This document shows positions 3,082-64,000 of a stretch of DNA of 64,000 bases, one piece after another (positions within the stretch are counted from its first letter, which is position 1; each line of letters opens with the position of its first letter). The notes beneath the pieces were generated by a model. That model was given only the letters and a program-made list of their open reading frames with translations. It did no database searches and was not told where the DNA came from. Origin of the DNA: Solirubrum puertoriconensis (GTDB lineage: Bacteria; Bacteroidota; Bacteroidia; Cytophagales; Hymenobacteraceae); NCBI RefSeq assembly GCF_001483135.1, contig NZ_LNAL01000002.1, forward strand, positions 11-64,010, written 5' to 3'. Position numbers and translations under genes: made by a program.

Positions 3082-4026
3082 ATGAAAAAATTCACCTCGT
3101 TCGCCGACGTACCGGACTACCGCGCCCTGCTGCAACAGGCGCTGGAGATTAAGCAGAACCCCTTCGGCTACCAGCAGCTAGGCAAGAACAAGACCGTCGG
3201 GCTGATTTTCTTCAACCCCAGCCTGCGCACCCGGCTCAGCTCCATCAAGGCGGCCTACAACCTAGGGGCGCAAGCCTGGGTGCTCAACGCCGGCGCCGAC
3301 TCTTGGACCCTGGAAATGGCCGACGGCGCGGTGATGAACGGCAGCACGCAGGAGCACATCAAGGAAGCCATTGCCGTGATGAGCCAGTACTGCGACGTGT
3401 TGGGCGTGCGCACCTTCCCCGGCCTCAAGGACCGCGACGAGGACTACAACGAGGTGGTCTTCAATAAGATTCTGCAGTACGCCACCGTGCCCGTCATCAG
3501 CCTGGAAAGCGCCACCCTGCACCCGCTGCAAAGCTTCGCCGACCTCATCACCGTGGCCGAAACCAAGCAGACCGAGCGCGTGAAAGTGGTCTTGACCTGG
3601 GCCCCGCATGTGCGCGCCCTGCCCCAATGCGTGCCCAACTCCTTTGCCGACTGGTTCTCGGAGGTAGACTGGGTAGACTTCGTCATCACCCACCCCGAAG
3701 GCTACGAGCTGGCCGAGCAGTTTACCAAGGGCGCCCGCATCGAGTACGACCAAGCCAAGGCCCTGGAAGGCGCCGACTACGTGTACGCCAAGAACTGGAG
3801 CAGCTACCGCAACTACGGGCAGGCCATCACCCAGGACCCGAGCTGGATGGTGGACGCCCGCCACATGGCCCTGACCAACAACGCGAAATTCATCCACTGC
3901 CTGCCCGTGCGCCGCAACGTGGAAGTTTCGGACGCCGTGCTCGACTCGCCCAACTCCTTGGTGGTGCAGGAGGCTGGCAACCGCGTATTCTCGATGCAAA
4001 CGGTGCTGCACGAAATGCTGAAGTAG
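3082..4026 (+). CDS. argF': N-acyl-L-ornithine carbamoyltransferase (acetyl or succinyl type)
   Basis: Transfers carbamoyl phosphate to an N-acylated ornithine in the Bacteroidota/Xanthomonas branch of arginine synthesis. The 314 residues match the family length. The carbamoyl-phosphate loop is FFNPSLRTRLSS (43-54); HPLQSFADL, TWAPHVRALPQ, THPEGYEL, AKNWSSY and HCLPVRRN follow in family order. The specificity residue in the GxxxEH segment is Gln90 (GSTQEH). The Bacteroides fragilis succinyl enzyme has Pro90 and the Xanthomonas acetyl enzyme has Glu92 there, so the acyl group used cannot be read from this protein. It lies downstream of carB, separated by the repeat cassette, and ends in a strong terminator. 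Confidence 0.93.
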   Translation: MKKFTSFADVPDYRALLQQALEIKQNPFGYQQLGKNKTVGLIFFNPSLRTRLSSIKAAYNLGAQAWVLNAGADSWTLEMADGAVMNGSTQEHIKEAIAVMSQYCDVLGVRTFPGLKDRDEDYNEVVFNKILQYATVPVISLESATLHPLQSFADLITVAETKQTERVKVVLTWAPHVRALPQCVPNSFADWFSEVDWVDFVITHPEGYELAEQFTKGARIEYDQAKALEGADYVYAKNWSSYRNYGQAITQDPSWMVDARHMALTNNAKFIHCLPVRRNVEVSDAVLDSPNSLVVQEAGNRVFSMQTVLHEMLK

Positions 4027-4047
4027 CCGCTTCTATCCTACTGCTGA

Positions 4048-4085
4048 AAACAAGAAAGCCGGACCTAGGTCCGGCTTTCTTGTTT
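4048..4085 (+). terminator. Rho-independent terminator of argF'
   Basis: Perfect 18-bp stem (AAACAAGAAAGCCGGACC and its complement) with a two-base loop, ending in a T-rich stretch. The A-rich left side could make it work in both directions, serving the convergent lipoprotein gene too. The centre of the palindrome is CCTAGG. Confidence 0.85.
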
Positions 4086-4122
4086 GGTACATGGCAGCGC
4101 GCTGCGCCTAGGTGCTAGTGTC

Positions 4123-4653
4123 CTAAAGCGGGTCGGCGGTTACCTTAAATTTGGAATCGGCGCGCATGGTGATGTCCTGCGTTACGGCCGCCCGGATGCG
4201 TGCTTCGGTAGTGAGGGTGTAGCTCGAAGCCTTGATGTACTTATCGAGCTTGGCGCCGCTGGGCTGCAGATCGATGGTGCGCACGCCACGCGGAATTGAG
4301 CTAAGAGAGGCCAGGGGCACGCGGTCGTTCTGGTCGGTGCTGATGTAGATGGTGATGCTTTCGAGGAAGTCGAAGTTGGCGGTGTTGGGGTCGGTGATGG
4401 TGAGCGTGAGTTTGGTAAGGCTTACGTCCTTTACCAGGTCGGCGCGGGTGTCTTCGTTGCGGAAACGGTCTTCTGACTTGGTGGTAACCGAAACCGGCGC
4501 CACCGGAATAACCGAGCCGAAGGGCAGGTTGCTACCGGCAACCCGGATGTTCTGCGAGTCTTCGATGGTGAAGGTGAGGATCTTATCGAGTTTTTTGCAG
4601 GCAGCCGCCCCGATGAGCAGCGCAGCAGCGAAGAGCAGGAGGAAATTTCTCAT
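4123..4653 (-). CDS. Hypothetical outer-envelope lipoprotein
   Basis: A 176-residue protein with a lipoprotein signal: MRNFLLLFAAALLIGAAAC, Cys19 being the predicted lipid-modified residue. The mature part is rich in Thr, Ser and beta-strand patterns (VSLTKLTLTITDPNTANFDF, ESITIYIS), suggesting a beta-sandwich fold. No enzyme motif is visible. Similar small lipoproteins are common in Cytophagales, but I cannot assign a function. It is convergent with argF'. Upstream it is separated by about 140 bp from the glycosyltransferase stop and could be transcribed alone. Confidence 0.75.
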   Translation of the reverse strand: MRNFLLLFAAALLIGAAACKKLDKILTFTIEDSQNIRVAGSNLPFGSVIPVAPVSVTTKSEDRFRNEDTRADLVKDVSLTKLTLTITDPNTANFDFLESITIYISTDQNDRVPLASLSSIPRGVRTIDLQPSGAKLDKYIKASSYTLTTEARIRAAVTQDITMRADSKFKVTADPL

Positions 4654-4793
4654 GGCAGGTGAAGAAGAATGGGCGAAAATACGGTGCCCCGTTTCCGCTG
4701 GTTTGGCAGAAACGGGGCACCGAGCAATTTTCGTTCCGGAGTACTACAAGGCAATAATTAAATGCCATGTCGCGCCGGCAGCAAAACCATTTG

Positions 4794-6110
4794 CTAGCCG
4801 GCCCATTCGCGCACAATAAAGCGCTGCAACAACCACAAAAGCAGCGCACTGTTGCCCGCTATGCTAAGCACCAACGCTGCTTGGCGCACGCGGGGGTGGG
4901 TACTCGCCGTAGCCAGCACCACCATGGCGGCCAAGCCAAGCAATAAATAAGCAGTCAGCGTCCGGACGTGACCGTAGGTCCGGAAAAGCCCCAACCAGCA
5001 TACTTCGGCGGCCAGCCACACCCAAAGCAAACGCTTGCAATCCAAACGTACCTGGCCGAGCACCCACCCAAGCAGCACCACAAAGAATGGCGAGGCAAAT
5101 GCATAGCGGCTGAGGCTAGCCATAATGCCTCCTTTGGTAGCCACGGTAATGGTAGCCACGCCCGCTATATAAAGCATCGAGAATATCACCCCAAAAGGCA
5201 GTGAGGCCGCTTTGCTGGGTTGCAACAACAAGTAAGCAAGGTATAAAGCGCAGGCAACGGCCACCAGCAGCGCCAGCGACTCGTAGCGGGTCATCGTATC
5301 GCCACCCCAGCTAGACAAGGGCCACGCGGGCACCTGCAGGTGGTTGTTCCATCCTTCGCGCTGAGCCCGCACGAATGCCAGCCAGATACCGGTGTCGCGG
5401 TAGTGCACCCATAAGCTAATTAGCATGCCTGCAACCGAAGCCAGCACTCCACCTAGGGCTTGCCGCCATACCAACCGAGCGCCCTGATGACGCAACAGCC
5501 AAGCAGTGAGCAGCAAGGCCGGGACAAACATGAATGCTACCGAGCGCGTGCAGCTACACAGTAGCAGGCCTGCCCACGCCAATGGCATTTGCTGTTGGCG
5601 CCACCCGATTAGCGTTGCCGCGCCACCTACAAAAAACAGGGCCTCGCTGTAAGCCACGCCCATGAAAAACATCGACGGTATTGATAGCGCGAGCAGCTGT
5701 TGCCCCACCGGGAGGCGCCACGCTCGGGCCAAGGCCGCAAACGCCAGCACAAAGAGCCCTAGGTTGAGCACGCATATGCCAACCGTACCCAGCCCCGTAG
5801 CACGCCAAAGCAGCGGAAATGCCGGGAAGAAAGCCGTTCGGATGAGGTCGTAGCCCTGGTTGCAGATGAACAGGTAATGCTCGGCATCCCATTCTTGCAG
5901 TCCGCGCGCGGTAATGGGCTGTGCCCCTAGGTAGGGCAGCAGCACAGCCGCCAGCAGCACCATGCTGGCAGTATACAAGGCGGGCACCAGCAAGTAGCGC
6001 CAAAAGATGCCCGGCTTGCTGGCTTCGTCGGTGGCTTGTGCCGGGCCGATAATAGTACCGGACGCTGCGGTGGCAGCGTCCGGTACATTTGATTGTGACA
6101 TACTATGCAC
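4794..6110 (-). CDS. PIG-V-like membrane glycosyltransferase (GT-C fold)
   Basis: A 438-residue protein with about 10-12 hydrophobic segments. After the first segment comes WDAEHYLFICNQGYD, and then AFFPAFPLLWRATG. These match the WDxxWYxxIAxxGY and AFFPxYPLL signatures of PIG-V-like mannosyltransferases, in which the first Asp is catalytic. Such enzymes move a sugar from a polyprenyl-phosphate donor to a lipid or protein acceptor on the outer face of the inner membrane; donor and acceptor here are unknown. A second in-frame Met (MSQSN) lies three codons downstream of the chosen start. The stop of hmgA lies only 6 nt upstream, so it is probably co-transcribed behind hmgA, with no clear functional link. 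Confidence 0.8.
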   Translation of the reverse strand: MHSMSQSNVPDAATAASGTIIGPAQATDEASKPGIFWRYLLVPALYTASMVLLAAVLLPYLGAQPITARGLQEWDAEHYLFICNQGYDLIRTAFFPAFPLLWRATGLGTVGICVLNLGLFVLAFAALARAWRLPVGQQLLALSIPSMFFMGVAYSEALFFVGGAATLIGWRQQQMPLAWAGLLLCSCTRSVAFMFVPALLLTAWLLRHQGARLVWRQALGGVLASVAGMLISLWVHYRDTGIWLAFVRAQREGWNNHLQVPAWPLSSWGGDTMTRYESLALLVAVACALYLAYLLLQPSKAASLPFGVIFSMLYIAGVATITVATKGGIMASLSRYAFASPFFVVLLGWVLGQVRLDCKRLLWVWLAAEVCWLGLFRTYGHVRTLTAYLLLGLAAMVVLATASTHPRVRQAALVLSIAGNSALLLWLLQRFIVREWAG

Positions 6111-6116
6111 TCTGGG

Positions 6117-7322
6117 TTAATCCATCATGTCGGCCGGTTTGGGGCCGGCGTGTGGGTAATCGGGGTTCCAGCTCATGGGGTAGCCGGTGTCTTCGTACTG
6201 AAGGGCCGTTTCGGTGAGGTAGAGCGGGCGGAAGGTGTCGACCATTACAGCCAGCTCGTGGGTTTCCTTTTTGCCGATGCTGGCCTCCACGGTGCCCGGG
6301 TGAGGGCCGTGTGGCAGCCCCGAGGGGTGCAAGGTAAACGAAGCCAGATCGACGCCGCGGCGCGACATGAAGTTGCCGGCCACGTAGTACAGCACCTCGT
6401 CGGAGTCGACGTTGCTGTGGTTGTAGGGCGCCGGAATGGCCTCGGGGTGGTAGTCGAACAGGCGCGGCACAAAGGAGCAGATCACGAAGTTGTGAGCCTC
6501 GAACTGCTGGTGCACGGGTGGCGGCTGGTGAATGCGGCCCGTAATCGGCTCGAAATCGTGGATGCTCATGGCGTACGGAAAAAAGTACCCGTCCCAGCCA
6601 ACCACATCAAAAGGCGTGTGGGCATAAACTAGCTCGTGCAGGGCGCCTTCGCGCTTTACCAGCACGCGGTACTCGCCGCGGTCGTCGTCTTCGGTTACCA
6701 GCTCGTGCGGCGGCCGGATATCCCGCTCGCAGTAAGGCGAGTGCTCGAGCAGCTGCCCGAAGTGGTTGCGGTAGCGGCGGCAGGTTTCGACGGGGCTGAA
6801 CGACTCGATGACGAGCAGCCGCACGGGCCCTTCTTCGAAGTGAAACTGGTGAATGATGGTGCGCGGAATCACCACGTAGTCGCCAGGCTCGAACGCGACT
6901 TTACCCAGCTGGCTCCACAGCTCGCCGCGGCCCTCGTGCACGAAGATGACCTCGTCGGCCAAGGCGTTTTTGTAGTAGTAGTCCATGCGCGTCTGCGAGG
7001 GGTTGCAGATGCTCAGGGCCACATCGGCGTTGGCCAGCAGGGTTTGGCGGGCGCCTAGGTAGTCGGTGCCGGTGCTGGTTTGGGGCAGCGTACGCAAGTG
7101 CGTGGGCTGCAGCGGGCGGTCCTTCAGCAGCTTGGGGCTGAAAGGCTGCGGCTCGCCCACGCGCTTAATCTGAGTGGGCGGGTTTTTATGGTACAGCAGC
7201 GACGACAAGCCCGAGAAGCCCAGCGTGCCCACCAGCTGCTCGGAGTAGAGCGAGCCATCGGGCTGACGGAACTGGGTGTGGCGCTTGCGCGGAATCTGAC
7301 CTAGGCGGGTGTAATACGGCAT
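6117..7322 (-). CDS. hmgA: Homogentisate 1,2-dioxygenase
   Basis: Opens the ring of homogentisate to maleylacetoacetate in tyrosine degradation, using non-haem Fe(II). I chose the start MPYYTRLGQIPRKRHTQF (401 residues), because the 36 codons upstream show no family similarity. The cupin core is clear: ADEVIFVHEGRGELWSQLG, GDYVVIPRTIIHQF, then the iron region HSNVDSDEVLYYVAGNF and LHPSGLPHGPHPG. His302, Glu309 and His338 are the best ligand candidates. The family-typical ending, which describes lack of a C-terminal extension, fits the shorter bacterial form. The gene is not next to other tyrosine-degradation genes here; the PIG-V-like gene follows 6 nt downstream. Confidence 0.92.
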   Translation of the reverse strand: MPYYTRLGQIPRKRHTQFRQPDGSLYSEQLVGTLGFSGLSSLLYHKNPPTQIKRVGEPQPFSPKLLKDRPLQPTHLRTLPQTSTGTDYLGARQTLLANADVALSICNPSQTRMDYYYKNALADEVIFVHEGRGELWSQLGKVAFEPGDYVVIPRTIIHQFHFEEGPVRLLVIESFSPVETCRRYRNHFGQLLEHSPYCERDIRPPHELVTEDDDRGEYRVLVKREGALHELVYAHTPFDVVGWDGYFFPYAMSIHDFEPITGRIHQPPPVHQQFEAHNFVICSFVPRLFDYHPEAIPAPYNHSNVDSDEVLYYVAGNFMSRRGVDLASFTLHPSGLPHGPHPGTVEASIGKKETHELAVMVDTFRPLYLTETALQYEDTGYPMSWNPDYPHAGPKPADMMD

Positions 7323-7531
7323 AAGCAGATGAGAAACTGGGTGGGAATACGAGCAGATTGGGTAGCCGTGAAGGTACGAAAAAGGCCCGCCGACCGATGA
7401 ATACGCTCCGGCTTTGGCTGCCGCTGCCATTCACGGGCATTCACATGATTGTGCTATGGCGCCCGCCCTGCCTGCGTGCTTAATTGCCTGAGTATTGCCG
7501 CTATTCTTTCGCTCACATACCGCTTTCAGCC

Positions 7532-8284: not shown

Positions 8285-8309
8285 ACAGCCTGTATTCAAC
8301 AAGCAATAT

Positions 8310-14680: not shown

Positions 14681-14928
14681 GCTAGGCTGGTTCGAGCAAC
14701 TGAGCCATTTGTTTTAAGTGTTCAACCAAGCAGAGTGTATATTTTTACCTCAATGAACAGCCTCGTTGCTTGTGCTAAGAACCCAACAGTAAGCCGCAAA
14801 TCACCATCCAGCAGCTACATGATAGCCAGCGCATAAGTTTAGGTTAAAACAGCAGAGGCACAGGCAACAACCCCGACCGCAGGCGTGCGTAGGTAGGCCG
14901 TTGCCCTTCCTTTCCTCTCCTGTTGTAT

Positions 14929-17250
14929 ATGCCTCGCTTTTTACGCCTCGTTGCAGGCTTTCTTCTTTCTTTTTGTGTTCTGACTGGCAGCGCCGCCGCC
15001 CAACGGGTGGGCGTGGTACTTTCGGGTGGCGGGGCTAAGGGCCTTGCCCACGTGGGCGTGCTGAAGGTGCTCGAGCAAAACGGCATCCCCATCGATTATA
15101 TCGTGGGCACGAGCATGGGCTCGGTGGTGGGGGCGTTGTACTCGGCCGGGTACTCGCCGCGCGAAATCGAGCAGATTGTCATTCAGCCCGAGTTTCAGTA
15201 TTGGGTATCGGGCAAGCAACCCGCCGACCGCACCTTTAACTACCTCACCGCCGACCCCAACCCCTCGTCGCTACACGTGGGGCTGGCCGTCGATTCGTCG
15301 TTCCGGACGCGGGTTACGCCCAACCTCATCAACGACGTGAACCTGAACTTTGTGCTGGCCAAGATGCTGGCGCCGGCCGGGGCCATTTCGGGCTACAACT
15401 TCGATAAGCTGTTTGTGCCGTTCCGGTGCCTGGCTGCCGAGGTATTCACGCGCAACCAGGTAATTCAGCGCGAAGGCTCGATTTCCGATGCGGTGCGCAA
15501 CTCCATGGCCGTGCCGCTGGTATTCCGGCCCATTCGCAACCCCGATGGCCGCTACCTGTTCGATGGCGGCATCTACAACAACTTCCCCACCGATGTGATG
15601 CGCTCCGAGTTCAAGCCCGATGTCATCATTGGGGTGAACGTGGGCGACGTGGCCTACAAGAAGTACCCCTTCGGCAAGGACGACGAGCTGCTGCTGGGCT
15701 CCATCGTGTTTCTGGGTGCCGACGTGGCCGACACCTTGGCCGTGGGTAAGAATGGCGTGTTCATTCAGCCCGACCTGGAGGGCTTTGGGGCTACCGACTT
15801 TGCCCGGGTGCGCGAGCTGATTGACTTAGGCGAAAAGGCCGCCACTGCCAAGCTGCCCCAGGCGCTGCAGCGCATTCAGCGCCGGCAGGATACGCTGGAG
15901 CTAGCAAAGCGCCGCCAAGGCTTTCAGCAGCAGGCGCCGCAGCCGCGGTTTGCCCGCGTGGGGGTGCAGGGCCTCAACGATCAGCAAGCGGCCTTTGTGC
16001 GGCGCTTTTTCCGGCGCGACGGCAGCACCTACACCATCGACGATATCGAGGAGGGCTACTACCGCCTCGCAGCCGACGACTTTTTCCGGAACGTGTACCC
16101 GCGCATCCGCTACGACCGCACCTCCGAGGGCTACGTGTTTCAGGTGGATGCGCGCCAGAACAACAACCTTTCGGGCGAAGTGGGCTTCGTGCTGAGCTCG
16201 CGCCCCATCGATAACTTTTACCTGGGGCTGGAATACCGCTACCTACGGCGCTTTCTGTACCAGGCTTCGGCCAGCGTAAACATCGGCCGCTTCTACAACG
16301 CGGCGCGTGGTTCGTTTCGCATCAATGTGCCGGCACGCTACTCCTACTACCTCGAGCCGACCATCATTTACAACCAGTGGAACTACCAGAAAACCGGGGG
16401 CCTGCTGGGGCGCGACGTGGTGAGCACGCAGGTGCGTCAGCAGGATTTGAAGGCCGGCGTGCAACTGGGCTTCAGCCCGAACTACCGCAGCCGCATTTTG
16501 CTCGAAGGCGCTTGGTTTACACGGCAGGATGAATATGCCAATGTAAACGAGATATCGAACACCGACCGCCTCGACGAAACCGATTTTACGGGCTACACCG
16601 CCGCCGCGCAGTTTGCCCGCAACTCCCTCAACCGCAAACAGTACGCTACCAGCGGCCGCCGGGCGGTGTTTACCACGCGCCTGGTGTACGGCCGCGAGCA
16701 GCTGACGCCCGGCACTACCTCGCTCATCGAGGAGGAGCGCGAGCGGTACTTACGCTGGCTGCAGATCCGCGCCTTCACGGAGCAGTTCTTCCCGCTGAAA
16801 AACGAAAAGCAGAGCTGGGGCTACTTCGGCGAGGTGATGATTAGCGGGCAGCCGCGCTTTTACAACTACCGCTCGTCGGTTACGGCTGCGCCCATTTTTG
16901 CGCCCTTGCCCGACTCGCGCACGTTGTTTTTGGAGAACTACCGCTCGGCGCGCTACGTGGCCGCGGGCTTGCGCTTCAACCAAGGCGTAATAGGCAAGCT
17001 CGAATGGCGCACCGAGGCCTATGTGCACGTGCGGCACCAGCCCTTGCGCATGGGCGACAACCAGGAAGCCGAACGCAACGGCCGCTTTTCGGTGGAGCGC
17101 CCGCGCCTAACGGCCAGCACCGGCCTGGTGTACCAAACGCCCGTGGGGCCGCTGGCCGTGCACGTTATTCACTACGACGACTCGGCCAAGCGCTGGGGGG
17201 TGTTTGGGCACATTGGCTACCTGCTGTTCCAAAGCCGAGCTCTGGAATAG
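14929..17250 (+). CDS. Patatin-like phospholipase with POTRA and outer-membrane barrel (type Vd/Omp85-like)
   Basis: 773 residues from ATG 14929. Signal peptide to about residue 25, then a patatin domain: oxyanion loop GGGAKG (33-38), nucleophile GTSMGS (Ser62) and Asp212 in DGGIYNNFP, the Ser-Asp dyad being intact. After about residue 325 a POTRA-like segment (RFARVGVQGLNDQQAAFVRRFF) leads into a C-terminal beta-barrel of the BamA/FadL type, rich in aromatic strand ends. The Bacteroidota RssA/PlpD-like proteins of this layout sit in the outer membrane and expose or release a lipase; lipid turnover is inferred. No CCTAGG occurs in its 2.3 kb. Confidence 0.9.
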   Translation: MPRFLRLVAGFLLSFCVLTGSAAAQRVGVVLSGGGAKGLAHVGVLKVLEQNGIPIDYIVGTSMGSVVGALYSAGYSPREIEQIVIQPEFQYWVSGKQPADRTFNYLTADPNPSSLHVGLAVDSSFRTRVTPNLINDVNLNFVLAKMLAPAGAISGYNFDKLFVPFRCLAAEVFTRNQVIQREGSISDAVRNSMAVPLVFRPIRNPDGRYLFDGGIYNNFPTDVMRSEFKPDVIIGVNVGDVAYKKYPFGKDDELLLGSIVFLGADVADTLAVGKNGVFIQPDLEGFGATDFARVRELIDLGEKAATAKLPQALQRIQRRQDTLELAKRRQGFQQQAPQPRFARVGVQGLNDQQAAFVRRFFRRDGSTYTIDDIEEGYYRLAADDFFRNVYPRIRYDRTSEGYVFQVDARQNNNLSGEVGFVLSSRPIDNFYLGLEYRYLRRFLYQASASVNIGRFYNAARGSFRINVPARYSYYLEPTIIYNQWNYQKTGGLLGRDVVSTQVRQQDLKAGVQLGFSPNYRSRILLEGAWFTRQDEYANVNEISNTDRLDETDFTGYTAAAQFARNSLNRKQYATSGRRAVFTTRLVYGREQLTPGTTSLIEEERERYLRWLQIRAFTEQFFPLKNEKQSWGYFGEVMISGQPRFYNYRSSVTAAPIFAPLPDSRTLFLENYRSARYVAAGLRFNQGVIGKLEWRTEAYVHVRHQPLRMGDNQEAERNGRFSVERPRLTASTGLVYQTPVGPLAVHVIHYDDSAKRWGVFGHIGYLLFQSRALE

Positions 17251-17283: not shown

Positions 17284-17334
17284 TAATGCCAAACGGCCCT
17301 AGGTTCAATTCGAACCTAGGGCCGTTTGGCATTT
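17284..17334 (+). terminator. Terminator of the patatin gene, symmetrical
   Basis: Perfect 22-bp stem (AATGCCAAACGGCCCTAGG plus TTC and its complement) with a 5-nt loop and ATTT after it. Each arm contains one CCTAGG. It is unusually long and could also block transcription from the other side. Confidence 0.8.
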
Positions 17335-21805: not shown

Positions 21806-22975
21806 ATGCCACTCTCCCTCCCCATCGAATCCGTAGCCATTCGCACGCAGCCGCGGGTGGCCGAAATTGCCTGGTTCGACGACCTGTGCGGCGGCGACAC
21901 CCAGTTTCTGAGCGTACTCGACAACGAGCGCCGCAGCTCCTGGCAGCACTGCTCCGACATCACCTTGGAAGCCGACCGCCTAGGCTACAGCAACATTCTG
22001 CTGCCCACCTCCTACACCGTAGGGCAGGATGTGCTCACGTTTGCGGCCGGCATTGCCCCGCAAACCAAAAACATCAACCTGCTCACGGCCATTCGCACCG
22101 GCGAAATTCACCCGCCTATGCTGGCCCGCGCCCTGGCCTCGCTCGACCACATGCTGCAGGGCCGGCTCACCATCAACATCATCAACTCCGACCTGCCCGG
22201 CCTGCGCGAAGACCCGGCCCTGCGCTACCAGCGCTGCGCCGAAACCATCGAGATACTGCGCCAGGCCTGGACGCAGGAGCGCATCGTGCACAAAGGCGAG
22301 CTGTACCAGTTCGATATGGCCGCCGACCCGGCCAAGCCATACCAGCAAAACGGCGGTCCGCTGCTGTACTTCGGTGGCACCTCCGAGGGCGCCCGCGAGG
22401 TGTGCGCCAAGTACTGCGACATGTTCCTGATGTGGCCCGAGAAGGAGGAAATGCTGTACGAAACCATGCAGGACATGAGCGCCCGCGCCGCCCGCTACGG
22501 CCGCCAAATTGACTTTGGCTTGCGCATTCACGTGGTGGTACGCGAAACCGAAGCCGAAGCCCGCGCCTACGCCCGGCACCTGATGTCGAAGTTCGACCCG
22601 GTAAAGGGCGCCGAAATCAAGAGCCGCGCGCAGGACTCGTGGTCGTTGGGCGTGCACCGCCAGAACCAGATGCGCGAGTACGCCGACAAGGAAGGCTTCG
22701 TGGAGCCGTTGCTCTGGACGGACATCGGCAAGGCCCGCTCCGGCGCCGGCGGCGCTTTGGTAGGCGACCCCGACCAGATTGTGGAGAAGCTGCAACGCTA
22801 TATGGATATGGGGATGCGCGCCTTCATCTTTTCGGGCTACCCGCTGATTGATGAGGCCAACCTGTTTGCCCGCTACGTGCTGCCGCGCCTGCCCAACGTA
22901 TCAATGCCCAAACTGCAAGGCCGCATTCCTGCAGAAACACCCGTAACTCCGCTCACCACGGCCCCGCTACGCTAG
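21806..22975 (+). CDS. LLM-class flavin-dependent monooxygenase, SsuD-like
   Basis: 389 residues, a TIM-barrel flavin protein. Early markers are [16 protein letters not shown] and [39 protein letters not shown] and NIINSD follow, then [27 protein letters not shown], closely resembling alkanesulfonate monooxygenases. SsuD-type enzymes use FMNH2 from a partner reductase to release sulfite from alkanesulfonates. No sulfonate transporter or reductase gene is next to it, so the substrate is open. The C-terminal 25 residues are rich in Pro and Thr. Confidence 0.85.
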
Positions 22976-22995
22976 AGCTATGCTACAGGCTAGTA

Positions 22996-23150
22996 CTAGT
23001 TCCCCTCCTCAGATGAATTCCGCGCCTGGAGCGGCGTGGGTTAGGGGTGGTTGAAAGGCTAGAGTTACAGACTAGTTCTAGATGCTGTTCAAACGTCAAC
23101 CACCCCTAGCCCCTCCTCAGACGAGGAGGGGAATTAGCTTGTAGTTTTAG
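22996..23150. repeat. Inverted repeat between SsuD-like gene and trehalase
   Basis: The left arm has TTCCCCTCCTC and, about 40 nt later, TAGGGGTGGTTGA. The right arm has the complements in mirrored order (TCAACCACCCCTA, GAGGAGGGGAA). The left arm is interrupted by a GC-rich stretch and the right arm folds on itself (CCCCTCCTCAGACGAGGAGGGG). It lies tail-to-tail between two genes and may act as a double terminator, but the form is that of a dispersed REP-like element. Confidence 0.7.
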
Positions 23151-23158
23151 CTTCTAGC

Positions 23159-24730
23159 TTATTTGCCCATCTGCTCTTCCAGCTTGTACTGATTCATCAG
23201 CGTTAGTAGCACGCCGTTGGTCCAACCGAAACCATCTTGCGTGGGGTACTCGCCGCCCCCGGCTTCGAGGTGCGTGTTTACGACGTTGTACTTCTCGAGC
23301 AGCTTGCCCGTTTGCCTGAATACGTTCACGTTTAGGGCTACCCAGCGTGTGGCAATGGTGCGGGCCAGCTCGCGCTGCCGGTAGTGCCCGAGCCCTTCGA
23401 TAGCCACGTACTGCAGCGGGGCCCAGCCGTTGGGCGCATCCCATTGTTCGCCGCTGCTGTTGAGCGTAGTGAGCAGGCCGCCATCCTTCAGAAAGTCGCG
23501 CTGCAGACCGGCGGCTACGGCGCGGGCCTGCCTAGGTGTGGCTATCTGCACGAACAACGGGAACACGCCCGCCAGGGTACGAATGGCGGCCGGCTGCTGC
23601 GCCGCAAAGTCGTAATCGGTAAACCAATTGGCTTGTGCATTCCAGCAGTAGCGGAGCAGGGCTTGCTTGCGTTGCGCCGCTTTTCCGTCGAATGCTTTGG
23701 CTTGCGCGGCCTGGCCTTGTATGCGGTAGCTGCGGGCAATGGTTTGCTCCAGCGTGTAAAGCAGGCAGTTCAGATCGACAGGCACTAGCTCGGTAGTGCG
23801 GATAGAGCCTAGGCCACCGGCCGGGCCAAACCAGCGCGTGCTAAAATCCCAGCCCGAGGCCGCGGCGGCGCGCATGTGGCGGTAAAACACCGGCTTGGGC
23901 TGTGCGCTTTGGGCAGCGGTAGCAACATCCTCGGCGTATGATTCTTCTCGGGGGTAGTCGCCGCTGTCGTAGTAGCGGTTGAGTACCTCGCCGCCGGGCA
24001 GGCGCACAACGCGGCGCGTGGCTTGGTTTGGGGCCAGCGAATCGGCGCCAGCCATCCAGTAGGCGTACTCTTGCAACAGCTGGGGGTGGTAGCGGCGCAG
24101 CACCGTATCACCTTGGGCTTGGGCCAGCAGCTGCACCATCAGGGCAAAAAACGGCGGCTGCGAGCGGGTAAGGTAGTAGGTGCGGTTGCCGTTGGGCACA
24201 AAGCCGTAGCGGCCAATCAGCGAGGCAAAGTTGTCAACCATGCTGCGCATCAGCGGTGTGCGGCCGCTTTCGCGCAGGCCCAACATGGTGAAGTACGAAT
24301 CCCAGTAGTATATCTCGCGAAAGCGTCCGCCCGGCACGATGTACGGCTTGGGCAGTTGGATCAGCGAGGCATACGGACCTACCGAATCCTGCGGTTGGCG
24401 CTGCAGCACCGTCCAAAGCGTGTCGAGGTGGCGCCGGATACCGCCGCTCACGTTGGCGCGGTAAGTGCCTGCTACCTGCGCGGGCAGTTCGAAATGCGCC
24501 AACACAAACTGCCGCAGGTTAAAGCCCGGTTGGTTTTTCTGCTGCTCGTAGGTTCGCACAATGGCGGCGGGTTGCGCTTTGGGGCGCGCATCCACAAAGG
24601 TTTTGCTGTCCTCGAACACGCGGCCCGTTTGCACGGGCTCAAACAACCCTGGGTACAGCTGTCGCGGCGACGACTGCGCCCCGGCACCTAGGCTCAGCAG
24701 CCAGCAACAAACAACGAGCAGGTATTTCAT
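23159..24730 (-). CDS. treA: Periplasmic trehalase (GH37)
   Basis: 523 residues from MKYLLVVCCWLLSLGAGAQ (signal peptide). Splits trehalose into two glucoses. Signature 1 PGGRFREIYYWDSYF spans 133-147; QWDAPNGWAPLQ and the glycine-rich EAGGGEYPTQDGFGWTNGV near the end are also present. The acid Asp is in SGWDFSTRW and the base Glu is in the GGGEY region, by family comparison. Two upstream Met codons add no signal-like sequence. Upstream is a lipoprotein gene on the same strand; a terminator separates them. Confidence 0.93.
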   Translation of the reverse strand: MKYLLVVCCWLLSLGAGAQSSPRQLYPGLFEPVQTGRVFEDSKTFVDARPKAQPAAIVRTYEQQKNQPGFNLRQFVLAHFELPAQVAGTYRANVSGGIRRHLDTLWTVLQRQPQDSVGPYASLIQLPKPYIVPGGRFREIYYWDSYFTMLGLRESGRTPLMRSMVDNFASLIGRYGFVPNGNRTYYLTRSQPPFFALMVQLLAQAQGDTVLRRYHPQLLQEYAYWMAGADSLAPNQATRRVVRLPGGEVLNRYYDSGDYPREESYAEDVATAAQSAQPKPVFYRHMRAAAASGWDFSTRWFGPAGGLGSIRTTELVPVDLNCLLYTLEQTIARSYRIQGQAAQAKAFDGKAAQRKQALLRYCWNAQANWFTDYDFAAQQPAAIRTLAGVFPLFVQIATPRQARAVAAGLQRDFLKDGGLLTTLNSSGEQWDAPNGWAPLQYVAIEGLGHYRQRELARTIATRWVALNVNVFRQTGKLLEKYNVVNTHLEAGGGEYPTQDGFGWTNGVLLTLMNQYKLEEQMGK

Positions 24731-30274: not shown

Positions 30275-31480
30275 ATGAACATCTTCGTCGTCAATTCCGG
30301 TAGCTCGTCTATTAAGTATCAGCTCTTCCGGCTGCCTGCCGAGCAGCCCTTGTGCAGCGGTTTGGTGGAGCGCATTGGCTTGGCCGCGCCGCGCATTACG
30401 CATAAGGTATATACCGGCGGCGAAGAACAGGTCATCCGGCAAAGCCCCGCAAGCCTGCCCGACCACCGCGCCGGCCTACAGGCCGTGCTGCAGCTGCTGA
30501 CCGATGATGCCCTAGGTGTAATCCGCGAACCGAGCGAGATAGAAGCCGTGGGGCACCGCGTGGTGCACGGCGGCGAGGCGTTTGCTGCCACTACCGTGAT
30601 TACTGAGGAGGTAAAAGCCGAAATCAAACGCCTGTTTTCGCTGGCGCCGCTGCACAACCCCGCCAACCACCTAGGCATTGAGGTGGCCGAGCAAATCTTT
30701 CCGCAGGCGCAGCAAGTAGCTGTATTCGATACAGCCTTCCATCAAACCTTGCCCGAGCAGGCTTACCGCTACGCTTTGCCGCACGCGCTGTACCACGAGC
30801 ACGGTATTCGGGTGTACGGCTTTCATGGCACCAGCCACAAGTACGTGGCCGCGCAAGCCGCTGCCCACCTAGGCAACCCCGACGCCCGACTGATTACCAT
30901 TCACCTAGGCAACGGCTGTAGCATGGCCGCGGTGCGCGGAGGCCGCTCGCTCGATACCACCATGGGCTTTGGCCCGCTGGCCGGCCTGATAATGGGCACG
31001 CGCTCCGGCGACCTTGACCCCTCCATCATCTTCCACCTCATCGAGCACCTAGGCTACTCGCCCGCCGAGGTAAACAACCTGCTCAACAAGCAAAGCGGCA
31101 TGCTGGGCCTCACGGGCATGAGCGACATGCGCGACATCGGCCGCGCCCTCGACGAAGGCGACGAACGCGCCCGCCTTGCCTACGAGCTCTACGCCTACCG
31201 CATCAAGAAATACATTGGCGCCTACGCTGCCGTACTGGGTGGGCTCGATGCGCTGGTATTCACGGCCGGCGTAGGCGAAAACGACCCGCTTACACGCCGC
31301 CTGGCGTGCCAGGGGCTGGAGTTCCTGGGTGTGCGGATTGATGAGCAGCAGAACCAACTGCGCACCGGCGCAGTGCGCGAAATAAACGAGGCCGATGCGC
31401 CGGTGAAAGTGCTGGTGGTGCCCACCAACGAGGAGCTGGAAATAGCCCAGCAGTGCTACGAGCTGCTGCACCTAGGGTAG
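30275..31480 (+). CDS. ackA: Acetate kinase
   Basis: 401 residues. Transfers phosphate between acetyl phosphate and ADP. N-terminal MNIFVVNSGSSSIKYQLF (phosphate-binding NSGSSS), FHGTSHKYV, HLGNGCSMAAVRGG (adenosine loop) and VFTAGVGENDP are in family order. Forms the acetate pathway with pta upstream. Of nine Leu-Gly pairs, six are written as CTA-GG after a codon ending in C, producing CCTAGG; two after a non-C end use CTG, and one (TTC CTG GGT) breaks the rule. The stop follows CAC-CTA-GGG. Confidence 0.96.
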   Translation: MNIFVVNSGSSSIKYQLFRLPAEQPLCSGLVERIGLAAPRITHKVYTGGEEQVIRQSPASLPDHRAGLQAVLQLLTDDALGVIREPSEIEAVGHRVVHGGEAFAATTVITEEVKAEIKRLFSLAPLHNPANHLGIEVAEQIFPQAQQVAVFDTAFHQTLPEQAYRYALPHALYHEHGIRVYGFHGTSHKYVAAQAAAHLGNPDARLITIHLGNGCSMAAVRGGRSLDTTMGFGPLAGLIMGTRSGDLDPSIIFHLIEHLGYSPAEVNNLLNKQSGMLGLTGMSDMRDIGRALDEGDERARLAYELYAYRIKKYIGAYAAVLGGLDALVFTAGVGENDPLTRRLACQGLEFLGVRIDEQQNQLRTGAVREINEADAPVKVLVVPTNEELEIAQQCYELLHLG

Positions 31481-44862: not shown

Positions 44863-45915
44863 ATGAAGCTCTCCGAGTTCAAGTTTGAATTGCCCGATAA
44901 CCTGGTCGCTCAGCACCCTGCCAAAAACCGCGACGAATCGCGGCTGATGGTGGTGCACCGCGATAGTGGCCGCATCGAGCACCGTACATTTAAAGATATC
45001 ATCGAGTACTTCGACGATGGTGACGTAATGGTGGTGAACGACACGAAAGTGTTTCCGGCCCGCCTTTACGGTAACAAGGAAAAAACCGGCGCCAAGATTG
45101 AGGTATTCCTGTTGCGCGAGCTGAACAAGGAGCTGCACCTGTGGGACGTGCTGGTTGATCCGGCTCGTAAAATCCGGGTTGGCAACAAGCTGTACTTCGA
45201 CGACGACGGCATCATGGTGGCCGAAGTTATCGACAATACCACTTCGCGTGGCCGCACGATCAAGTTCTTGTTCGATGGCCCGGAGGAGGAGTTCTACAAG
45301 GCCCTGCACGACCTAGGCGAAACCCCGCTGCCTAAGGAGTTTATCCCGCGCGACCCCGAAGCATCAGACAAAGAGCGTTACCAAACCATTTACGCCAAGC
45401 ACACCGGCGCCGTAGCGGCTCCGTCGGCTGGCCTGCACTTCACCCGCGAGGTTATTAAGCGCCTCGAGATTAAAGGCGTGGAAATGGTGCCGGTAACCCT
45501 GCACGTAGGCCTGGGCACGTTCCGCCCCGTCGACGTGGAGGACCTCACCAAGCACAAGATGGACTCGGAAAACTTCATCGTGCCCACCGATTCGGCCTCG
45601 ATGGTAAACCGCGCCCTCGACCACAAAAAGCGCGTGTGCGCCGTGGGTACCACCACCATGCGCGCCATGGAGTCTTCGGTATCGGCCAACGCCCGCCTGA
45701 AGCCGACCGAAGGCTGGACGGACAAGTTTATCTTCCCGCCTTACGACTTCAAAATCGCCAACACGCTGCTCACGAACTTCCATATGCCCGAGAGCACGCT
45801 CATGATGATGGCCGCCGCCTTTGCTGGCTACGACCTGCTGATCGAAGCGTACCAAACAGCCATTAAGGAGAAGTACAAGTTCTTCACCTACGGCGATGCC
45901 ATGCTGATTCTGTAA
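44863..45915 (+). CDS. queA: S-adenosylmethionine:tRNA ribosyltransferase-isomerase
   Basis: 350 residues. Adds the ribosyl part of S-adenosylmethionine to preQ1 in tRNA, the penultimate queuosine step. [57 protein letters not shown], and [12 protein letters not shown] are in order and at family length. Followed by a terminator; ispD lies downstream. Confidence 0.96.
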
Positions 45916-45975: not shown

Positions 45976-46052
45976 TTGCCCCTAGGTAGCAGTTGCCGCA
46001 GCTACCTAGGGGCATATTGGGTTGCGGGTATGATGGTAGCGCACTTGCGGGC

Positions 46053-54006: not shown

Positions 54007-54022
54007 TCTTTCTATGCAAGCC

Positions 54023-57040: not shown

Positions 57041-57071
57041 ACGCTCCCCGCCAGAGCGGCGGGGAGCGTGA
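57041..57071 (-). terminator. Terminator of the M16 peptidase pair
   Basis: Perfect stem ACGCTCCCCGCC with an AGAGC loop, downstream of the M16 genes on the minus strand. U-tract weak (ATCGTTT). Confidence 0.6.
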
Positions 57072-57098
57072 AACAAACAGCCGGAGCAGCCCGCCGGG

Positions 57099-58502: not shown

Positions 58503-58520
58503 GGGATGTTGAGGGGGTGT

Positions 58521-58634
58521 AGCGCGTTAGTAGCGCGGACTTTGTAGTCCGCGTCCTCCGCGCCGTTTGCACGTTCTCGTTTTAAGAAATGTATCTGCGG
58601 ACGCGGACTACAAAGTCCGCGCTACTGACGCGCT
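58521..58634. repeat. 36-bp inverted repeat between the M16 genes
   Basis: Arms 58521-58556 and 58599-58634 are inverted copies with one mismatch. Each arm also holds an inner hairpin (GCGGACT-TTGT-AGTCCGC). A 42-nt loop separates them. The block lies in the transcribed gap between two cistrons. Confidence 0.85.
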
Positions 58635-58645
58635 ATTGCCGGGCA

Positions 58646-60103: not shown

Positions 60104-60229
60104 TACTTGGGGTTGAGAGATTGAGCACGAGGCCGTTAAGCTAAAAATATTTCAACTTAATCAAAGCTCCGCCCAGTACTAAGCTGACTTAATGAAGCCG
60201 CGTAGCACTCTGCCCTAGGTGCCCAGTCC

Positions 60230-61567
60230 TTATACCTCCACTTTGAGGGTGGCCGGCTGGCGGGTTATCTCAAACATTTCGCCGTGCGGCACCATGGTTA
60301 TCTGCCCGAATTCCTGAATCATTTGCTTGTAGGATTCACCCACCGGCCTGATGCGACGCTCTAGGTCGTAGAGGCCGCAGGGGTTTACGGTGCCGCGCTT
60401 TTCGGCCAGGGCAATGTCCCAGTCAACTTGGTCGGTAAGCGAGTACCACGTAAAGCCGAGCACGGGCACGCCGTCCTGGCGCATGCGCAGCACGTTCATC
60501 CACTGCTTCCAAAGCCAGCACTCGGCGTCTTCGGCCTTAAAGGTGTTGGTTTCGGTGTGCATTACGGGCTTGCGGTACCGGTCGTAGTAAGTGCGCGTCA
60601 TGTGGTACCAGCCCAGCACATCCTCGGCCTCGCACCAGCCGCCATCGGGCTTGATGATGCGCTCGTTGCGGCCATAATAGTCGTTGCCCATAATCTGGTG
60701 GCCGGGCGGCTCGCCGGCCATAAACCAGTCGAGCTCCTTGCGCGTGAGGCCGTTATCGAGGCAAAACAGCATCACCTCGGCATCGAGTTGGTGCGCGTAC
60801 AGCAAATCGAGCGACAAAAAGCGCAGCTTGTTGCTAAGGCGCACCCAGTCGCTTTCCACCACGCGCGCTTCGTGCAGAAACTCGGCCGACTCGCTCTGCA
60901 CAATTACCGCGTCGGGCCGGCGGTGCACAATTTGCTGCGTGGCCATGATGCTGGCGGCCACGGTGTGCTTCATGGCCGTTACAAACGAGCGGTCGTCCTT
61001 GAGCTGCTCGTTCCAGATGCCGTCGCGAGCCGAGGCGCGGGCCGTCACGTAGATTTCGTTGACGGGCGTGTAGTAGCGCACCCAAGGGTAGCGCTCGGCC
61101 ACGGCGGCGGCGTAGCGCGCAAAATGAACCGGTAGCTCGGGGTTCTGAAAATTGCCAACCCAATCGGGCACGCCAAAATGCAGCAAGTCCAGAATGGGCG
61201 TAATGCCCAGGCGCTTGATTTCGGCCATCACCTGATCGGCAAACTCCCAATCGTAGCGGTCGGGGCCTAGGTGAATTTTGTGGTACGGCAACCCGTAGCG
61301 CAACACCCGCAGGCCCAAGTCCTTCACCAACTGTAAATCCTGCTGCCAATAGTCGTAGTGGCGGCACTCGGCCAGCTGGTCGCGGCGGGTGCGGCCGTTA
61401 TCGATGGTGGGGTTTGAGCACTCGATGCCCGTGGCAAACATAAAGTTGCCAGGCGAACCGGTAGGCAACCCACGCCCATCGTGGCCGCCGGCGCCGCCGT
61501 ACTCGTCGCCGAGGTAAGTACCATCGCCGAACTCCTTGGTAATATGGTCGAGAAAATTGCTGGACAT
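60230..61567 (-). CDS. GH1-like family glycosidase
   Basis: 445 residues, TIM barrel. Acid/base Glu171 in YYTPVNEIYV and the nucleophile Glu339 in MHTETN are placed as in GH1. LRYGLPYHKIHLGPDRYDWEFAD and ITPILDLLHFGVPDWV are family features. The start MSSNFLDHITKEFGDGTYLGDEY has no signal peptide, so it is likely cytoplasmic. It may act on products of the GMC/subunit-3 pair upstream on the same strand. The gap 61568-61733 holds two CCTAGG. Confidence 0.8.
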   Translation of the reverse strand: MSSNFLDHITKEFGDGTYLGDEYGGAGGHDGRGLPTGSPGNFMFATGIECSNPTIDNGRTRRDQLAECRHYDYWQQDLQLVKDLGLRVLRYGLPYHKIHLGPDRYDWEFADQVMAEIKRLGITPILDLLHFGVPDWVGNFQNPELPVHFARYAAAVAERYPWVRYYTPVNEIYVTARASARDGIWNEQLKDDRSFVTAMKHTVAASIMATQQIVHRRPDAVIVQSESAEFLHEARVVESDWVRLSNKLRFLSLDLLYAHQLDAEVMLFCLDNGLTRKELDWFMAGEPPGHQIMGNDYYGRNERIIKPDGGWCEAEDVLGWYHMTRTYYDRYRKPVMHTETNTFKAEDAECWLWKQWMNVLRMRQDGVPVLGFTWYSLTDQVDWDIALAEKRGTVNPCGLYDLERRIRPVGESYKQMIQEFGQITMVPHGEMFEITRQPATLKVEV

Positions 61568-61733
61568 GCGAACGGTGTGGCGTTGGTTATCAGCTTGATA
61601 GAAGCACGGGCGGCTTGCTTTTGTTTGCGCATCCGGGCAAACAAAGCTGCCCTAGGTAGTTTGCGGCCCTGGCCACCTAGAGCACCGCGGCAGCGAGGCC
61701 AGTGCAAACTGCACGCGGCCCTAGGTAGCAAGG

Positions 61734-63410
61734 TTAGGCATCGAGGCGGCGCTGCTTTTCCAGAAACCGATCGGCAGTGCGCAGGCTCAGGGCCATGATG
61801 GTAAGGGCCGGGTTCACGCTTAAGGCACTCGGAAAGACACTGTTGTCGCAGATGTAGAGGTTGGGCACGTCGAAGGCGCGGCCATCAGCATCTACCACGG
61901 CATCGTCGCCGGAGCGGCCCATGCGGCAAGTGCCGATTACGTGCGCCGAACGCTGAAACGCCCATATATCCCGGGCACCGGCGGTTTCCCAAATTTGGCG
62001 CATGGTGCGCTCGGCGTGCTCAGAGAGGCGCAGCTCATTATCGTGGTAGCTGAAGTGCACCCGCGGTTTGGGCAGGCCGCGCGAGTCTTTTTCGGTGGCT
62101 AGCTCGAGGTAATTTTCGTCGTGCGGCAGGCACTCGCCCAATATGTTTATGCCGGCCACGTGGTTGTACTGGCGCATGTAGTCGTGCAGGGCGGCGCCCC
62201 ACAAGCCGCGGCCGCGCGCCACTTGGTTGGCAAACGTTACGGGCATTACGCCGATGCTTTGCAGCAGGTAGCCGCCGGCAAAGTTGGCATTGGCGGGTCG
62301 GTGCGTGTCTTCCGAAATCAGCGCGCCGGGTATGCCCTTGTACGGGCGCACTTCTTCCTCGAAAGTACCCCACACTTGCATTCCCGGGTGGGCCATAAAG
62401 TTGCGGCCTACGTGGCCGCTGCTCAGGGCTAGCTCATTGAGGAGCAGCAGCCGCGGCGTTTCGATAGCGCCGGCACACAAAAACAAGGCGCGGCAGCGCT
62501 GTTGCATTTGCTGGCCGTGCTGCTCGTACACCACGCCTGTTACGCGGCCTTGCGCGTCGCGCTCAATCTCGGTCACGAAGGCCTCGGCCCGTACCTCGGC
62601 GCCGTAGGCTTCGGCCAGCGGAATAAACGTAACATCCATGCTGGCTTTGGCACCAACCGAGCAACCGGCCTGGCAAAAGCCTCGGTTGGTACAGGCTTCG
62701 CGCCAACCTATGCCCTCCTGGTAGTAGCGCGCCGAAAGCGCCGCATTGGCCGCCGGCGAGGTACGAATACCCAACTGCTGACAAGCGCGCTGCATCAACT
62801 GCGCGGCACCATTTAGCGGCAGCGGACCTAGGGGGTAGCTCTGCCGGCGCGGCGGCCCCCACGGGTACGCCGCCGGCCCCGATATACCGAGCAGTTGCTC
62901 CAACTCATCGTAATAAGGCTCTAGGTCGGCGTAGCTCAGGGGCCAATCTTGGCCTATGCCGAACTCGGTGCGCAGGAGCAAATCGTCGGGTTGTGCGCGT
63001 GGGGTATAGGCCGTGTAGTGCAGCGTAGAGCCGCCCACGCCCGTGCCCGAGTTGTTGTTGCCAAACGAGGTGGGCGTGCGGCCGGCCGACAGGCGTTCGT
63101 CGTTCCAGAACAGAAATTCCTGCGCTTTTTCGTCGGTGGCAAAGTCGCGGCGCGCATCGTGGCGCGGGCCAGCCTCGAGGGCCACCACCTTTAGCCCGGC
63201 CATGGCTAGGCGCGCCAGCAGCGGGGCGCCGCCGGCGCCGGTACCAATCACCACGCAATCCACCTCGTCGAACTGCTCTGGCACAGGTTGCGGTTGCTCT
63301 TGCGGCGTAGCGGCCTGCTGCTCACCTAGGAGCTCTTGCAGCAGCGGGTCTTGTATTTCGGGCTTGATGGGGTTCAGCACTCCCTCCTCCAGCAGTTCTT
63401 CGTCGGGCAT
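61734..63410 (-). CDS. GMC family oxidoreductase
   Basis: 558 residues. FAD motif VDCVVIGTGAGGAPLLARLAMAGLKVVALEAGPR (about 50-83), SGTGVGGSTLHYTAY, TNRGFCQAGCSVGAKAS, and a C-terminal SAHVIGTCRMG (active His) and NPALTIMALSLRTAD. Resembles the large subunit of gluconate/sorbose-type dehydrogenases in Bacteroidota. It passes electrons to a partner through the subunit-3-like protein encoded 2 bp upstream. Substrate unknown. No twin-arginine signal is visible; export would need the partner. Confidence 0.9.
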   Translation of the reverse strand: MPDEELLEEGVLNPIKPEIQDPLLQELLGEQQAATPQEQPQPVPEQFDEVDCVVIGTGAGGAPLLARLAMAGLKVVALEAGPRHDARRDFATDEKAQEFLFWNDERLSAGRTPTSFGNNNSGTGVGGSTLHYTAYTPRAQPDDLLLRTEFGIGQDWPLSYADLEPYYDELEQLLGISGPAAYPWGPPRRQSYPLGPLPLNGAAQLMQRACQQLGIRTSPAANAALSARYYQEGIGWREACTNRGFCQAGCSVGAKASMDVTFIPLAEAYGAEVRAEAFVTEIERDAQGRVTGVVYEQHGQQMQQRCRALFLCAGAIETPRLLLLNELALSSGHVGRNFMAHPGMQVWGTFEEEVRPYKGIPGALISEDTHRPANANFAGGYLLQSIGVMPVTFANQVARGRGLWGAALHDYMRQYNHVAGINILGECLPHDENYLELATEKDSRGLPKPRVHFSYHDNELRLSEHAERTMRQIWETAGARDIWAFQRSAHVIGTCRMGRSGDDAVVDADGRAFDVPNLYICDNSVFPSALSVNPALTIMALSLRTADRFLEKQRRLDA

Positions 63411-63412
63411 GG

Positions 63413-64000
63413 CTACTGGGTTGGCTGGGTGGTGGCTTGCGGCTCCCGTTCTTCGCGGTCATTCAGGCCGATGCGCGTCCAGGCCGGTAAGTCGGCCATG
63501 CCCACGTACCCGATTTCTTCCTGCGCCAACGGGTGGGAGTAGTACAGGCTAATGGTTTCGGCCAGCAGCTCCTCAAAAAACAACGGCCCGTTCAGCTCTT
63601 GCCAAATGGCACCGCTGGCCGTGCCCGCTTGCACGGCTTGCAACACGGCATCTTGCTCGGCGGGTGTTAGCTGGAGAAAGTCGCGGCCGTACTGTGCCTG
63701 GGCCGTTTGGCGCAGGCCACCTAGGGCGAGGCGGTACGCTTCGCGGTCGGGCGGCAAGGCATCGTAGCGCCAGCCGTCGGCGTGACCTAGGGCCAGGCGC
63801 TCATCCACGCACCGCGCTACATCAATCACATTGGCCGGGGCGTTAGGCTGGTGTAGCAACCGGGCGCATACGGCCTCGAGTAGGGCGTAGGCTTCAGGCT
63901 CGAAAAATTGCGTCTGGTAGGGCTCGGTACCGGCAGCTAAGCGGCGCTGCAACGCCTCGCGGGTAGCGTCGCTCACGTGCTCGGTATCGAGTAAGGCCCG
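63413..64000 (-). CDS. Gluconate 2-dehydrogenase subunit 3-like protein (partial at right edge)
   Basis: At least 195 residues; the frame is open to the window edge. GTG at 63974 is a possible start, but ALLDTEHVSDATREALQRRLAAG continues upstream as in the family, so the gene is likely cut. Features: FFEPEAYALLEAVCARLLHQ, NVIDVARCVDERLA, TPAEQDAVLQAVQAG, ETISLYYSHPLAQEEIGYVGMADLPAWTRIGLN. The family is the small subunit of membrane GMC dehydrogenases, usually carrying a Tat signal at its start. Ends 2 bp before the GMC gene, so co-transcribed. Confidence 0.88.
   Translation of the reverse strand, partial: RALLDTEHVSDATREALQRRLAAGTEPYQTQFFEPEAYALLEAVCARLLHQPNAPANVIDVARCVDERLALGHADGWRYDALPPDREAYRLALGGLRQTAQAQYGRDFLQLTPAEQDAVLQAVQAGTASGAIWQELNGPLFFEELLAETISLYYSHPLAQEEIGYVGMADLPAWTRIGLNDREEREPQATTQPTQ

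Follow-up and report, generated by a model that had tools for sequence, protein, structure and literature searches.

The window analysed here comprises 64,000 bases of Solirubrum puertoriconensis DNA, bases 11–64010 of contig C2 of G000, the label given to the 4.80-Mb genome that supplies it, and it is rich in the hexamer CCTAGG. The unit that is repeated in G000 is the directional word ACCTAGG(S), where S is G or C, and not the palindrome CCTAGG itself. This word occurs at high density, has no consistent strand or transcription bias, is retained between related species above controls, forms hairpin pairs and is scarce in most loci that carry restriction genes; other Hymenobacter lineages possess words of their own. 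By analogy with known systems ACCTAGG(S) can tentatively be read as an uptake or self-recognition mark with dialects, in its most likely form a word similar to the DNA uptake sequence (DUS) of a naturally transformable lineage.

Abundance and direction of the word

CCTAGG occurs 89 times in the window, first at 3261 and last at 63786–63791, against 20.6 copies expected from base composition. The ratio of observed to expected (O/E) of 4.3 is the highest among the 64 palindromic hexamers. These values agree with the first-pass annotation of this DNA, which had put the count at about 90 and the expectation at 20–22, although the GC content of the window is 59.5% rather than the 63% or so that it had assumed. 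Simple gene calls place 51 copies in 51.1 kb of coding DNA (1.00 per kb), 36 in 12.9 kb of intergenic DNA (2.78 per kb) and two across a boundary, confirming the suspicion that density is higher between genes. The whole genome contains 6212 copies, or 1293 per Mb, a frequency that is not near expectation; the excess is genome-wide and stronger between genes, which upholds the earlier view that the pattern is more than codon use. ACCTAGG is found 2861 + 2962 times, about one per kb, a genome-wide over-representation of the kind that characterizes uptake sequences.

The congeners G005 and G006 hold 5678 and 5325 copies of CCTAGG, five other congeners 123–249, and 50 further relatives of the order 5–807. 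Within the order, a genome of another family (G048), unrelated to the Hymenobacter groups examined, has 807 copies in 4.0 Mb against 62 of a reversed control pattern. In the window and the loci of G000–G007, GATC stands at about 0.3 of expectation throughout the genus and CTAG at 0.19 in the motif-poor congeners. This scarcity implies that the CTAG core was uncommon in the genomes in which the word originated.

Markov models trained on the window expect 24.3 (order 2), 37.5 (order 3) and 138.7 (order 4) of the 178 copies observed on both strands. The order-4 model, proposed earlier as a check, absorbs most of the excess and on paper comes near to refuting it. It was judged circular because the motif itself generates the 5-mers CCTAG and CTAGG, and relatives were judged a better null than window-trained models. 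The order-4 expectation is also a point in favour of a word made by mutation bias or by codon and composition effects, with no function. This explanation is already disfavoured and very improbable: congeners with similar genes hold 25–50 times fewer sites, and intergenic DNA is denser in the word than coding DNA.

The direction of the word is evident from its flanks. Of 415 CCTAGG sites in 289 kb of G000, 367 have a single flanking A, nine have an A at each end and 39 have none, and independence of the two flanks is rejected (chi-square 251). The 89 sites of the window (3261–63791) follow the same pattern, with A on one side only in 78, on both in two and on neither in nine; oriented by the side of the A, with the next base not T, 44 of them lie on the + strand and 34 on the − strand. 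G005 and G006 obey the same rule, and it is seen within genes and between genes when these are taken apart. The base after ACCTAGG in G000 is G in 182 cases, C in 154, A in 31 and T in nine, and positions beyond the immediate neighbours of the word carry little information. At sites conserved between species pairs the direction never flips (0/49, 0/45 and 0/106, 0/200 in all). Such coupled flanks, in genes and between them, also speak against mutation bias.

The first-pass annotation had described CCTAGG as a highly iterated palindrome (HIP), comparable with HIP1 of cyanobacteria. The excess of the hexamer is genuine; the palindrome has to give way to a directional unit. The direction of the word in the clade of the window also speaks against the explanation, rather improbable overall, that a modification enzyme reads CCTAGG and that modification-biased repair creates and keeps the sites. 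Elhai's model of HIPs moreover predicts G beside the methylated C, where the preferred neighbour here is A.

The two orientations are balanced in G000, with 183/184 sites in the 289 kb, and in G005, with 118/110 (origins not mapped). Within genes, sense and antisense sites number 118/129, 67/66 and 69/56 in the three genomes, and orientation is thus independent of transcription. There is no consistent strand polarity across 13 pieces of G000, nor any that follows GC skew, the origin being unmapped. Chi- or KOPS-type use predicts such polarity. A reading as a Chi or FtsK-orienting sequence is accordingly rejected, and the replication motif suggested earlier is not seen in a form with strand polarity. 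The missing polarity also counts against a chromosome-wide DNA-binding protein, be it a nucleoid, recombination or repair factor, that needs a dense word kept by selection on many weak sites; this explanation is unlikely overall, and the evidence on its other side is given below.

Placement, gain and retention of the word

The preference for intergenic DNA is common to the three rich genomes. CCTAGG occurs at 2.05 per kb between genes and 1.23 per kb within them in G000, at 1.61 and 1.05 in G005 and at 2.13 and 0.87 in G006; the values for the five motif-poor congeners (400 kb) are 0.07 and 0.01. The presence of sites in intergenic and coding DNA alike would suit a general DNA-binding protein. 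Coding copies almost always spell a Leu-Gly pair, and the full word is used for 240/677 such pairs in G000, 134/430 in G005, 119/471 in G006 and 1/744 in the motif-poor congeners. In G000, CCTAGG accounts for 264 of the 399 Leu-Gly pairs whose preceding codon has C as its last base. The gene for acetate/propionate kinase, ackA (30275–31480, + strand), illustrates this, and the annotation had proposed that CTA-GG is used there after a codon ending in C and CTG otherwise. Six of the nine Leu-Gly pairs are indeed CTA-GG, all after a C-ending codon, and two of the other three follow a codon not ending in C. The third, TTC-CTG-GGT, has CTG despite the C-ending previous codon and breaks that part of the rule.

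Gaps between sites are near random, with a coefficient of variation of 0.89 in G000, 0.96 in G006 and 1.89 in G005, where it is inflated by a site-poor stretch. A HIP-like origin according to Elhai would instead predict a spacing of about 1 kb.

Close pairs of sites show a preferred arrangement. Among 58 pairs at most 80 bp apart, 27 are head to head (−+), 12 are +−, 11 are −− and eight are ++. Several of these pairs form perfect, terminator-like hairpins, some of them shortly 3′ of a gene. One such hairpin (17285–17333) lies about 35–47 bp past the stop of the gene at 14926–17250, its stem holding a head-to-head pair with CCTAGGT at 17298 and ACCTAGG at 17314. G005 and G006 each have a pair with the identical 17-base offset in the corresponding position, where outer stem letters are altered on both sides and the word is unaltered. 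A second hairpin (45977–46014) contains head-to-head copies of CCTAGG at 45981 and 46005 and lies about 60 bp past the stop of the open reading frame ending at 45915. The window also holds, at 22961–23170, a dispersed repeat of about 60–190 bp with the potential to form a long hairpin, at −75.7 kcal/mol over 170 bases. It has matches of 69–92% identity in five other G000 pieces examined and in many places of G005, G006 and G007.

The history of the sites was followed by aligning orthologous places. The word is found at none of those aligned in the motif-poor congeners (G001 0/37, G004 0/23, G007 0/23, G002 0/20, G003 0/13), the majority of which are at least two bases or a gap away from it. 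The commonest one-step precursors in these outgroups are ACCTGGG and ACCCAGG, both silent in Leu-Gly codons, which favours mutation bias, as do decay products of the 3′ end that are several-fold commoner than in the poor congeners. In most cases, however, the outgroup sequence is at least two changes from the word, which counts against mutation bias in general and leads to the rejection of a single-step origin by deamination. The one-step mutational attractor offered by the annotation likewise fits poorly.

Retention was compared among the rich trio G000/G005/G006, at 87–88% identity. Leu-Gly codons that carry the word are unchanged in 73/115, 70/88, 37/51 and 32/52 cases, and those without it in 84/243, 88/269, 29/102 and 36/104, that is, word-bearing codons are better kept in all four comparisons (p 4e-7 for the first pair). 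Intergenic sites are kept in 28/49, 32/56, 14/22 and 15/23 cases, against 0.45, 0.43, 0.29 and 0.35 for anagram controls. Absence from the outgroup places combined with retention above controls indicates a gain of the word in the trio and its maintenance since then by selection or drive. This retention is a further point against mutation bias and would also be consistent with a chromosome-wide DNA-binding protein.

Words of other Hymenobacter lineages

Among 204 Hymenobacteraceae genomes eight contain more than 2500 copies of ACCTAGG per strand (G000, G005, G006, G070, G076, G125, G140 and G158) and the other 196 at most 345. An AckA tree of 56 sequences, built on one gene and without support values, places the eight rich genomes in three separate groups; AckA was matched in 27 of 30 genomes, G003, G084 and G109 being those without a match, and G116, which is in two pieces, was left out. 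In the trio G000/G005/G006 an A is found on exactly one side of CCTAGG. In G070 (Hymenobacter cavernae), G076 (H. crusticola) and G158 it is preferred independently on both sides, making the word symmetrical (ACCTAGGT in H. cavernae), and in G125 and G140 the flank is A, C or G and seldom T, CCTAGG again acting as a symmetrical site. Symmetrical CCTAGG with independent flanks in these five genomes favours a HIP-like origin.

Other groups of Hymenobacter carry other words, namely ACCTAGGT, CCCTAGGG, STAGGCCAS and CTACCCC; such lineage-specific words in sister groups were not foreseen by the first-pass annotation. TAGGCCA is over-represented in G080 (H. fodinae), G172 and G164, CTACCCC in G124 (H. 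sediminis) and CCCTAGGG, a palindrome, in G109, each in coding and intergenic DNA alike. TAGGCCA is flanked by G or C in 96% of 271 cases on one side and 93% on the other. Neither STAGGCCAS nor CTACCCC is a palindrome, contrary to what a HIP-like origin would predict. CTACCCC is retained at 11/20, 11/17, 7/22, 7/18 and 13/27 sites at 83–88% identity.

The distribution of these words was tabulated across 32 rows, a non-random selection made after the motif scans in which many rows cover some 20 kb each. TAGGCCA occurs at 1.04–1.43 per kb in G080, G172 and G164 and at 0.05–0.42 elsewhere. CTACCCC reaches 1.13–1.64 per kb in four species and 0.58 in G060, with borderline rows in G162 (0.68), G071 (0.50) and G074 (0.50, alongside 0.70 of CCTACCC). 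The table leaves out L172 and L174 (G140; 3 and 1 CCTAGG per 20 kb) and L177 (contig C2 of G158; 1 per 20 kb), all three of which are included in the flank analysis. A later word test also leaves out L178 (G158) and L169 and L170 (G125), and G032, in which no coding base was called, lies outside the intergenic comparison. Weaker candidate words are CCTACCC in G060, GCTAGCC in G032 and GGGCCCC in H. nivis, H. coccineus and H. caeli. The word scans gave no clear over-represented word in G020, G171 and the poor congener G001.

The CTA/TAG core common to several dialects would suit a single protein fold with shifting specificity. However, the 196 genomes poor in ACCTAGG, together with G020, G171 and the poor congeners in which there is no comparable word, argue against a general DNA-binding factor. 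The majority of the family is without the ACCTAGG word and some sampled members are without a comparable one, so that the function must be dispensable.

Modification enzymes, known systems and DNA uptake

A HIP-like origin calls for a modification enzyme. Candidate methyltransferases accompany each of the alternate HIPs in the cyanobacteria examined in section 2.5.3 of Elhai's paper (Elhai 2015, PMC4390886), the main text of which mentions neither CCTAGG nor AvrII. The density in G000 also matches that of HIPs, given there as 1000–2000 per Mb, and in this respect the annotation's comparison with HIP1 stands. The methyltransferase that it proposed to look for does not emerge from six Pfam families. 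Within G000 there is no match in PF00145, PF02384, PF07669, PF02086 or PF20473, and the sole match, in PF01555, is an enzyme whose gene neighbours that of a SmaI endonuclease (PF17411, E 1.7e-76); a CCTAGG methyltransferase in G000 is therefore rejected within the families tested. These two genes form a convergent SmaI-type restriction pair on a 12.5-kb contig (L001:1372–3150, G000:C4). CCCGGG has an O/E of 0.26 in G000 and 0.32–0.37 in the congeners, and since it is depleted in both, the pair alone is not the explanation. G005 has no match in PF01555, PF00145 or PF02086 and one each in PF02384, PF07669 and PF20473, and G006 has matches in five of the six families. No tested family is common to all three rich genomes, which weighs against a HIP-like mechanism. 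Among 40 genomes PF20473 matches seven of the eight rich ones and 23 of the 32 others.

In the rich trio, CCTAGG is absent or present once in each of eight restriction/modification loci of 3.2–4.1 kb. Two MmeI-like loci hold six and eight copies, and these two genes therefore look like old residents. An MmeI-like methyltransferase of about 1200 residues is present in the rich G005 (L025) and G006 (L032), where it is dense in CCTAGG, and in the poor G001, G004 and G007, with no match in G000 or G003; its distribution does not follow that of the word, and it is rejected as the enzyme. A 20-kb stretch of G005 (L071, G005:C1:2980001–3000000) carries a type I HsdM gene and only seven copies of CCTAGG, and is probably an acquired island.

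The Hymenobacter words resemble the DUS dialects of Neisseriaceae more than cyanobacterial HIP1. According to the portion of PMC1939737 that describes them, uptake sequences are non-palindromic, show no orientation bias and occur in open reading frames yet above expectation in non-coding DNA; the part of PMC3630211 concerned with dialects reports that terminators carry inverted pairs and that eight dialects have a core in common. Hymenobacter likewise repeats a short word, not a palindrome, thousands of times within genes and at higher density between them, with head-to-head pairs in terminator-like hairpins. The words of related lineages differ, following phylogeny, and several of them share a short core (CTA/TAG in Hymenobacter, CTG in Neisseriaceae). 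In contrast to Neisseriaceae, the host belongs to the Bacteroidota and not the Betaproteobacteria, a detectable word is confined to part of the family, being symmetrical in some lineages, and a ComP-like receptor and competence are putative. The uptake signal sequence (USS) of Pasteurellaceae is similar in its density of about one per kb, its lack of orientation bias and its terminator pairs, and differs in sequence and phylum and in that the Hymenobacter word is known from sequence alone. HIP1 and the alternate HIPs are alike in density, in their sporadic lineages, in being GC-rich words of six to eight letters and in the CCTAGG core that is palindromic in some Hymenobacter. They are unlike in that the word of the window's clade is directional, that several relatives share the word as clades and that no shared or matching methyltransferase was found in the six families. 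HIP1 itself can be dismissed, as GCGATCGC occurs once in G000 and 0–60 times in 57 relatives and the host is a member of the Hymenobacteraceae, not a cyanobacterium. The table on other genomes in PMC1939737 includes GCCTAGGC, a palindrome of unknown effect. The open literature yielded no paper on ACCTAGG or on uptake sequences in Hymenobacter, none that joins over-represented and palindromic words with a methyltransferase there, and none on DNA uptake sequences that by title or the start of the abstract treats such words in Bacteroidetes; subscription papers were outside this scope.

If the word serves in uptake, a putative DNA-binding protein of the uptake machinery would prefer DNA that presents it in a particular orientation. 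Preferential uptake, with recombination among related cells, could then spread and keep the word, which would settle where harm is small, in intergenic DNA, in hairpins after genes and at silent positions of Leu-Gly codons. Relatives with an altered receptor may have drifted to ACCTAGGT, CCCTAGGG, STAGGCCAS or CTACCCC, which would constitute the dialects. Receptor, competence and uptake are inferred, as is the membership of the dialects in one system. PMC6668835 mentions that Cytophaga has a type IV filament system grouping with the type IV pili, and related machinery therefore exists in the phylum.

Several observations weigh against an uptake word. The main fact against a one-way receptor is that some dialects are symmetrical: the flank preference of H. 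cavernae, H. crusticola and G158 is one example and the palindrome of G109 another. The word has seven to eight letters, where the Neisseria uptake sequence is a 10-mer or longer (PMC3630211, in part). Searches (tblastn) with the E. coli pilus and ComEC-like proteins HofB, HofC, PpdD and YcaI gave no match in 3.86 Mb, which represents a few per cent of each genome and in which no positive control matched. A 200-kb stretch of G006 and a 20-kb stretch of G000 are uneven in orientation (131/92 and 19 to 5), and among purely intergenic pairs at most 60 bp apart the head-to-head arrangement exceeds the opposite one by 12 to 8. Intergenic retention exceeds the anagram controls in four of four comparisons, yet significance was reached in just one of the two tested (p 0.0013 against 0.11). 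Finally, GGGCCCC in H. nivis and its kin is kept at 26/52, 17/46 and 14/45 sites at 91, 87 and 88% identity, no better than plain identity, and it may be something other than a dialect word.

Known uptake sequences come from two proteobacterial families, and HIPs from cyanobacteria. It is conceivable, though somewhat doubtful, that DNA uptake sequences evolved independently a third time in Hymenobacter, for the first time within the Bacteroidota, and that its directional, lineage-specific words have a CTA/TAG core in common and keep gene pools apart as dialects. These words would be ACCTAGGS, ACCTAGGT, CCCTAGGG, STAGGCCAS and CTACCCC, perhaps with CCTACCC and GCTAGCC. If the uptake reading is true, species-specific barriers to gene exchange are predicted in these bacteria. 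Sister lineages that differ sharply in their repeated word, or are without one, offer recent gains for comparison with near relatives that have no such word. The Hymenobacter system thereby makes it testable whether such words originate by uptake preference, by DNA modification or by another DNA-binding function.

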